From assembly GCF_900172345.1 (NCBI RefSeq), contig NZ_FWFY01000002.1, positions 434,001 through 498,000 on the forward strand: a stretch of DNA of 64,000 nucleotides, in the 5' to 3' direction. A program made the position numbers and the translations under genes. The stretch comes from Limimaricola soesokkakensis (GTDB lineage: Bacteria; Pseudomonadota; Alphaproteobacteria; Rhodobacterales; Rhodobacteraceae). Below the pieces are notes generated by a model that did no database searches, was not told the origin of the DNA, and was given only the letters and a program-made list of their open reading frames with translations. Shown in pieces: positions 4,178 to 4,857 of the stretch. Each line of letters starts with the position of its first letter. Position 1 is the stretch's first letter.

Positions 4178-4807
4178 ATGCCACCCGATTTCACAGCAGA
4201 GACCACCGCCCGCACCCGCGGGCTCGTCCGCATCTGCGGCGTCGACGAGGTGGGGCGCGGCCCGCTCGCCGGCCCGGTCACCGCCGCTGCGGTGATTCTC
4301 GATCCCGAGCGCATTCCCGAAGGGCTCGACGATTCGAAGCGGCTCACTGCGCGTCGTCGGCTCGCTTTGGCCACCGAGATCGCGGCGGTGGCCGAGGTTT
4401 CGATCGCCCATGCGAGCGTCGAGGAAATCGAGAGCCACAACATCTTGCGCGCGTCGCATCTGGCGATGGTCCGCGCCGTGGCCGGCCTTTCGGCACCGCC
4501 CTGCCACGTGCTTATCGACGGCAACATGGTGCCGCGCGGCTTGGAGTACCCGAACGAAACCATGGTGGGCGGCGATGCGCGGTCGCTGTCGATCGCCGCG
4601 GCCTCGATCGTCGCCAAGGTGGCGCGCGACCGGATCATGGCGGAGTTGGCGCTGCGCCATCCGGGCTATGGCTGGGAGCGGAACTCCGGCTATGGAACGG
4701 CCCAACACATGGCGGCGCTACTGGATCTGGGGGTGACGCCTCATCATAGACGTGGCTTCAAACCCATCCACAACATCTTGTATCAACCCGCAATCGCAAC
4801 CGACTGA
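4178..4807 (+). CDS. rnhB: Ribonuclease HII
   Basis: Removes RNA from RNA-DNA hybrids, including single ribonucleotides left in DNA, in the cytoplasm. The 209 residues have the RNase HII signature [14 protein letters not shown] (Asp and Glu catalytic), then LIDGN and the conserved block [15 protein letters not shown], ending with the GYGT/HHRRGF region. Length matches the family. The ATG at 4178 is chosen because family homology begins about 20 residues later; an upstream in-frame start adds only low-complexity sequence. It lies directly upstream of ccrM in the same direction, an arrangement seen in related alphaproteobacteria. The stop codon overlaps a GATTC site. Confidence 0.95.
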
Positions 4808-4844
4808 TTCGAAAAAGATTTTGACACCGACTCACCTCTGACTC
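4806..4844. promoter_or_regulatory. Three GANTC (CcrM target) sites in the ccrM promoter
   Basis: GATTC at 4806-4810, GACTC at 4829-4833 and GACTC at 4840-4844 fall within 39 bp. The last two sit between the -35 and -10 elements of the predicted ccrM promoter. Methylation of these adenines by CcrM could feed back on its own transcription. Sites are read directly; regulation is inferred. Confidence 0.8.
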
Positions 4845-4849
4845 ATATT
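4821..4849 (+). promoter_or_regulatory. Sigma-70-type promoter of ccrM
   Basis: A perfect -35 TTGACA (4821-4826), a 17-bp spacer and a -10 CATATT (4844-4849, four of six matches to TATAAT) place transcription initiation near 4856. This is the best sigma-70 pair seen in the window. Confidence 0.7.
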
Positions 4850-4857
4850 TATCCACA
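4849..4857 (+). promoter_or_regulatory. DnaA box overlapping the ccrM transcription start
   Basis: TTATCCACA at 4849-4857 is an exact match to the strong DnaA box (TTATNCACA). It begins at the last base of the -10 element and spans the expected start of transcription. Binding of DnaA there could repress or time ccrM expression. Confidence 0.7.

Follow-up and report, generated by a model that had tools for sequence, protein, structure and literature searches.

The window, by which we mean the whole 64-kb stretch of Limimaricola DNA that was analysed, carries on its forward strand the ribonuclease HII gene rnhB (4178-4807, start codon assumed; NF000595, 239 bits) followed by ccrM (4898-6007), which encodes a GANTC adenine methyltransferase of 369 aa. 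The ccrM product matches NF050803 with 633 bits, the model cut-off being 830, over profile positions 2-350 of 350, and its closest named relative, among the best 80 of 581 named loci, is the CcrM of Limimaricola variabilis, 96% identical. The promoter scan found TTGACA (4821-4826) and CATATT (4844-4849) on the forward strand, separated by a spacer of 17 nt and with 10 of 12 matches. This is the sole promoter-like site between 4500 and 5000, where shuffled sequences gave 0.1, and the -10 hexamer is also seen in the family profile described below. Three GANTC sites are found at this promoter. Site 1 (GATTC, 4806-4810) is located 5' of the -35, roughly -51 to -47 relative to the predicted start, and is overlapped by the rnhB stop codon TGA (4805-4807). 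Site 2 (GACTC, 4829-4833) lies in the spacer, at a predicted -28 to -24, and site 3 (GACTC, 4840-4844), predicted at -17 to -13, shares its last base with the first base of the -10. The bases that separate site 1 from the -35 (4811-4820) are A-rich and are kept in the family (profile columns -10 to -1). Transcription is predicted to start at the A in position 4857, which corresponds to column 36 of the anchored family profile, 0.90 conserved, and an exact forward DnaA box, TTATCCACA, lies over this start (4849-4857, about -8 to +1). A GCGG-GCCA-CCGC hairpin follows in the leader (4866-4877), ahead of the ribosome-binding site, and a pattern search of 4845 to 5253 found no GANTC in the leader. 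The original prediction had the GANTC sites, the TTGACA-17-CATATT promoter and the DnaA box at these positions, in base-for-base agreement with the sequence, and it was also right that two of the three GANTC belong to the promoter core, sites 2 and 3 being in the spacer or against the -10.

GANTC is rare in the window, 90 sites as compared to 286 in dinucleotide shuffles, which is an about three-fold under-representation. When the 90 sites were placed randomly, a triple within 34 nt appeared in 9% of the trials, and the window has a second triple, within 24 bp, at 31180-31203, inside overlapping open frames of which one is a 174-aa ORF on the minus strand (31079-31603). The cluster at 4806-4844 alone is therefore only mildly surprising, and the decisive evidence for it being more than chance is its conservation in relatives. 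The 9-mer TTATCCACA has one exact copy in the window, the one before ccrM, and 13 exact copies genome-wide as compared to 11 for the reversed control pattern, so it is not enriched in the genome. A further exact copy was seen at G000:C22:433600-433608, about 5.2 kb upstream of the ccrM copy and 0.4 kb beyond the window.

A regulon with the same layout could not be seen in the genome, where TTGAC-N3-GANTC has 14 sites as compared to 11 for the reversed control; six of the 14 are one repeated element. The pattern TTG-N16-GANTCA-N3-T has 8 sites in the genome, as compared to 1 in the control. The sequence TTGACGGAGAATC is present in six copies, on contigs C13, C14, C24, C25, C39 and C40 of G000 (L352, L360), and five of the six are located 88-100 bases from a contig start. 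It is probably a repeated mobile element, and Rfam gave no match at two of its loci.

The conservation was followed in 230 ccrM upstream regions of the family, which are the window's own, 80 named loci (the best 80 of 581), 29 further loci and 120 stretches. From the wider family genome set, 46 of the 196 genomes with a match were left out, and some species are possibly in both sets. The three GANTC sites are kept in 185 of the 230 regions, in 162 with a spacing of 23/11, in 14 with 22/11 and in 9 with 24/11. Only sites 2 and 3 are present in 18 regions and only sites 1 and 2 in 10, and 17 regions have neither the triple nor one of these pairs at standard spacing. The pattern TTGAC-N3-GANTC-N6-GANTC was found in 201 of the 230 regions. 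A search of whole genomes gave this pattern in 156 of 198, nearly always in one copy, and the reversed control in four; a few of the places are away from ccrM, e.g. one each in G034, G002 and G108. A strict helical phasing of the three sites was considered and rejected, since sites 1 and 2 can be 22, 23 or 24 nt apart and site 2 slides elsewhere.

An anchored profile was made from 219 of the 227 distinct regions, the other 8 being dropped for a low anchor score. This score rewards TTGAC, the GANTC sites and the -10, so the profile is biased toward these, and the conservation of the -35 is partly by construction because TTGAC is the anchor. The family profile is TGATTCAAAAAAGAA[AT]TTGAC-GGC-GAATC-NNCTTT-GACTCA-TCTT; site 2 of the window, GACTC, is mostly GAATC across the family. 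In the -10, columns 24 (A) and 28 (T) are at 1.00, both of them also part of the anchor score. Intact sites 1, 2 and 3 stand at their profile columns in 175, 210 and 206 of the 219 regions, the first count being too low because the spacing of site 1 varies by 1 nt. For sites 2 and 3 the profile gives 0.94-0.99 for the four defining letters and only 0.80 and 0.79 for the N. A greater freedom of the N suggests that what is selected is a site that can be methylated. Site 1 differs in this, its N (0.88) being no freer than its other letters (0.81-0.94).

Outside the family we compared 66 regions, a non-random sample for which the 235 class genomes with a match were ranked by the similarity of their CcrM and used in that order. 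A GANTC lies exactly 19 nt from the TTGAC start in 35 of them, with one each at 18 and 20, and all 35 have an A after site 3 and a T at the -10 end. At the offsets 7, 8, 9 and 10 a GANTC was found 5, 18, 14 and 6 times. These offsets imply a third site in fixed register with the promoter and a second one that shifts slightly and is still a GANTC. Judged from such comparisons, the methylation sites appear to be the old core of the ccrM promoter. Another way to read the same letters is that they are kept for RNA polymerase, or for an unknown factor, which recognises the unmethylated sequence (e.g. TGANTCA), and that the methylation is incidental. The N letters and the flanks are skewed in the family, with T, A and C at sites 1 to 3, the N of site 1 is as conserved as its other letters, and the N of site 3 is mostly C also outside the family (25 of 35), all of which would fit. 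We find this explanation improbable, however, as the N is more variable than the other letters at sites 2 and 3, and as site 2 in other families is moved by 1-2 nt and is still a GANTC.

The original prediction had combined the GANTC sites with the DnaA box, and of this combination it is the GANTC triple that stands across Rhodobacteraceae; the exact TTATCCACA, in either orientation and within about 130 bp before the ccrM start, was found in only 16 of 227 distinct regions, and a box within one mismatch near the start in 28 of 219. For 399 letter permutations of the motif the average was 0.13 regions, and two permutations, similar to bases that are conserved close to site 1 and to the -10, scored 13 and 8. 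As many as 12 of the 16 exact boxes begin 28 nt after the TTGAC start, 9 forward and 3 reversed, and the remaining four are at offsets 27, 30, 30 and 8. At offset 28 these 12 exact boxes compare to at most 1 for any of the 139 permutations that keep the TT, and within one mismatch there are 24 as compared to at most 7. With two mismatches, at offsets 26-32, the numbers are 42 as compared to up to 62, the excess is gone and 5 of 300 permutations are as high. In CcrM trees of 130 sequences out of the 227 regions, with all 16 box-bearers included, the distribution of the box takes at least 11 (protein) or 10 (DNA) changes by parsimony, gains or losses, and a random placement of 15 labels gave 12-15 changes.

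It could be argued that Limimaricola has the 9-mer at 4849-4857 by chance, as most relatives lack it and its genomic count is close to that of the control. This is quite unlikely: the box is kept in three Limimaricola genomes (L001, L003 and L083), twelve exact boxes of either orientation share one offset, at which no permuted motif reaches more than 1, and the trees require 10-11 changes. It appears instead that the DnaA box is selected where it lies over the predicted start, yet that it is optional. Outside the family the exact box is present in 5 of the 66 regions (L285, L295, L300, L305 and L308), and only in L285 is it at offset 28, reversed. We also considered if the loss of GANTC is coupled to the gain of a DnaA box, as it seemed by eye in L029, L038, L191 and L197; this was not supported (Fisher p = 0.20), the exact box being found in 11 of 183 regions with the GANTC triple as compared to 5 of 44 without it. 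In L029, Aliiroseovarius crassostreae, a DnaA box in the -35/-10 spacer takes the place of site 2, and site 3 is lost as well. The 3' end of rnhB (4740-4790), which codes for a conserved C-terminus (..IHNILYQ), contains a near DnaA box, TCCACAA. In 86 of 219 family regions this end of the gene fits the DnaA consensus of Caulobacter for coding reasons, so that the rnhB coding sequence probably gives rise to false DnaA predictions in matrix scans of the region before ccrM.

An exact TTAA-N7-TTAA, the CtrA-type box, was found in none of the 230 family regions, which extends the earlier observation that it is missing before this ccrM, and 7 of the 230 have it within one mismatch. In the 66 outside regions there were 6 exact boxes and 11 within one mismatch. 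DnaA together with methylation had been put forward as what replaces CtrA in the control of ccrM throughout Rhodobacterales, and the missing CtrA box, the recurrence of DnaA boxes at one position over the predicted start and a published prediction of DnaA control where CtrA sites are missing (PMC2877005) would all speak for it. With the exact box in so few of the family regions, with 28 of 219 when one mismatch is allowed near the start, and with arrays that have no box in other families, such a general role is however very improbable, and the DnaA box rather appears to be a recurrent local add-on than a family-wide replacement of CtrA.

A short hairpin, its loop frequently A-rich, stands in many of the family leaders downstream of the predicted start and before the ribosome-binding site. 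Of 219 leaders, 114 reached a stem score of 9, as compared to 6% of shuffles. When 178 distinct leaders were aligned, out of the 190 of the 219 that were of suitable length, the three consensus pairs were formed in 90% of the cells, as compared to 74%, and at most 77%, when the 3' letters were redealt. This is suggestive of a hairpin with co-varying arms (GCG.. / ..CGC), a reading of three consensus pairs in which relatedness is uncontrolled. By eye, two or three copies of the hairpin stand in tandem in L029, L038, L040 and L045, and L070 and L071 are also multi-copy. Rfam gave no match at the ccrM leader of the window or in the loci of eight relatives. The hairpin could give an RNA-level control of ccrM.

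The ccrM gene of Caulobacter has its GANTC sites within the untranslated leader. Here they are instead in the core promoter, with none in the leader, and the gene is near the origin. The likeness to the Caulobacter crescentus ccrM promoter is that ccrM is described as controlled at its own promoter and by the methylation state (PMC2217572); that promoter is activated by CtrA, as opposed to the family studied here, where none of the 230 regions has an exact CtrA box. In the window's genome ccrM and dnaA are 180 kb apart, and in 17 of 17 genomes checked the distance is 33-677 kb, with contigs taken as circular. In 15 of the 17 this comes to less than 12% of the length of the genome or contig, and the other two are G003 with 13.6% and G173 with 30% of the contig. 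The nearness agrees with the report that ccrM in Rhodobacterales is preferentially origin-proximal (PMC8116508).

The GcrA/CcrM-dependent sigma70 promoters ctrA P1 and podJ share the spacer GANTC, which is reported at -29 in ctrA P1 and at -24 in podJ P2 (PMC4287350) and is predicted here at -28 to -24 for site 2. A GANTC between the -35 and the -10, and gcrA (PF07750, 162.9 bits) in the same genome as ccrM, are thus found also here. Unlike ctrA P1 and podJ, ccrM has two spacer sites, one of them touching the -10, and a further one upstream, and they stand before the methylase gene itself. The gcrA promoter of Agrobacterium tumefaciens is similar in having several GANTC in one promoter (PMC11514494), but the gene here is ccrM, and gcrA in the window's genome has no GANTC in the 260 bp upstream of it. 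Among the 66 outside genomes, 7 have no PF07750 match, and 6 of these 7 carry GANTC upstream of ccrM. The offset-19 site is present in 4 of the 7 as compared to 31 of the 59 with a match, bearing in mind that the profile may miss a divergent GcrA, and a role for GcrA as a necessary partner is not supported by co-occurrence. Either the PF07750 profile misses divergent GcrA proteins, or the array works without GcrA. In L312 and L320 gcrA is present, and the ccrM upstream region has no GANTC.

The work closest to the DnaA part is that of Brilli et al. (2010), who predicted in silico that DnaA controls ccrM where CtrA sites are lacking (PMC2877005), so that DnaA would act where CtrA does not. That prediction was made by a matrix scan of 500-bp regions, and its authors based no conclusion on GANTC counts; the DnaA box described here differs in having a fixed position over the predicted start, in both orientations. 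A methylation-sensitive transcription of ccrM and a predicted DnaA control of ccrM are accordingly both in print. The view in the original prediction that the arrangement was undescribed does not hold for the DnaA control. It may hold for the fixed GANTC array, which, like its family-wide and wider occurrence and the recurrent position-locked DnaA box, we did not find in the openly licensed literature.

We consider it somewhat more probable than its negation, at roughly 0.55, that ccrM is transcribed from a sigma70-type promoter which senses the product of its own enzyme, being weak when fully methylated and stronger after the passage of the replication fork, with a DnaA brake over +1 in Limimaricola. 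With both strands of all the sites methylated, the ccrM promoter would be weak. When the fork passes the origin-proximal ccrM early in S phase the sites would become hemimethylated and the promoter would fire; the hemimethylated sites are possibly read by GcrA, or possibly act directly on RNA polymerase. The newly made CcrM would then restore full methylation and switch down its own gene. In Limimaricola and in scattered lineages, DnaA bound over the start would block RNA polymerase, and ccrM would be kept down for as long as DnaA is active. Placed over -8 to +1, DnaA would most simply be a repressor.

The sign of the methylation effect in this model is taken from published precedents (PMC2217572, PMC4287350, PMC3667746, PMC11514494). 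The Caulobacter ccrM gene is described as transcribed only from the hemimethylated chromosome (PMC2217572), and Caulobacter transcription start sites with a GANTC between the -10 and the -35 are reported to be activated at 40-60 min (PMC4287350). On ctrA P1, GcrA is reported to cover -35 to +7 when the DNA is fully methylated and a 12-nt stretch near -35 when it is hemimethylated (PMC3667746). The A. tumefaciens gcrA promoter, with six GANTC, is reported to be lowered by methylation, even in E. coli (PMC11514494). A counter-example on the sign is Caulobacter ftsZ, described as most active when fully methylated (PMC8116508).

A positive feedback is the alternative, in which the methylated sites 2 and 3 recruit GcrA and RNA polymerase, CcrM activates its own gene and full methylation gives the strongest promoter. 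GcrA is reported to prefer fully methylated competitor probes over hemimethylated ones (PMC3667746), open complexes at methylated promoters are stimulated by GcrA according to a review (PMC7403470), and gcrA is present in the genome of the window. A purely positive loop would, however, leave the methylation unbounded, and GANTC arrays are found also in genomes without a gcrA match. Together with the Caulobacter transcription from hemimethylated DNA only (PMC2217572), albeit in another organism, this makes the positive feedback unlikely, and we prefer the promoter that is weakened by full methylation.

A wider reading, tentative and with somewhat less than even odds in our judgement, is that ccrM was ancestrally controlled in Alphaproteobacteria by the fixed layout TTGAC/GANTC/GANTC-A-N3-T, acting as a methylation homeostat, and that the CtrA control in Caulobacter and rhizobia is a later overlay. 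In Rhodobacteraceae it would then give an early switch-on, and the DnaA boxes over +1 would have arisen about ten times as a brake. If this is true, the promoter would gauge the methylation state of its own locus, and the DnaA boxes would be a brake tied to the initiation of replication. The origin-near ccrM of Rhodobacteraceae would be switched on soon after initiation and the hemimethylated window would be shortened, the opposite of the late pulse in Caulobacter.

In this family, strongly constrained methylation sites stand in the promoter of the very gene that encodes the methylase, and an exact CtrA box is missing there. The DnaA box, which recurs at a locked position, offers natural comparisons between regions with and without it. 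If the model is true, the timing of CcrM in relation to the gene position would be directly testable in tractable relatives, e.g. Dinoroseobacter, Ruegeria or Rhodobacter. The model would also imply that across this large group methylation is timed by a promoter that reads itself, rather than by CtrA.
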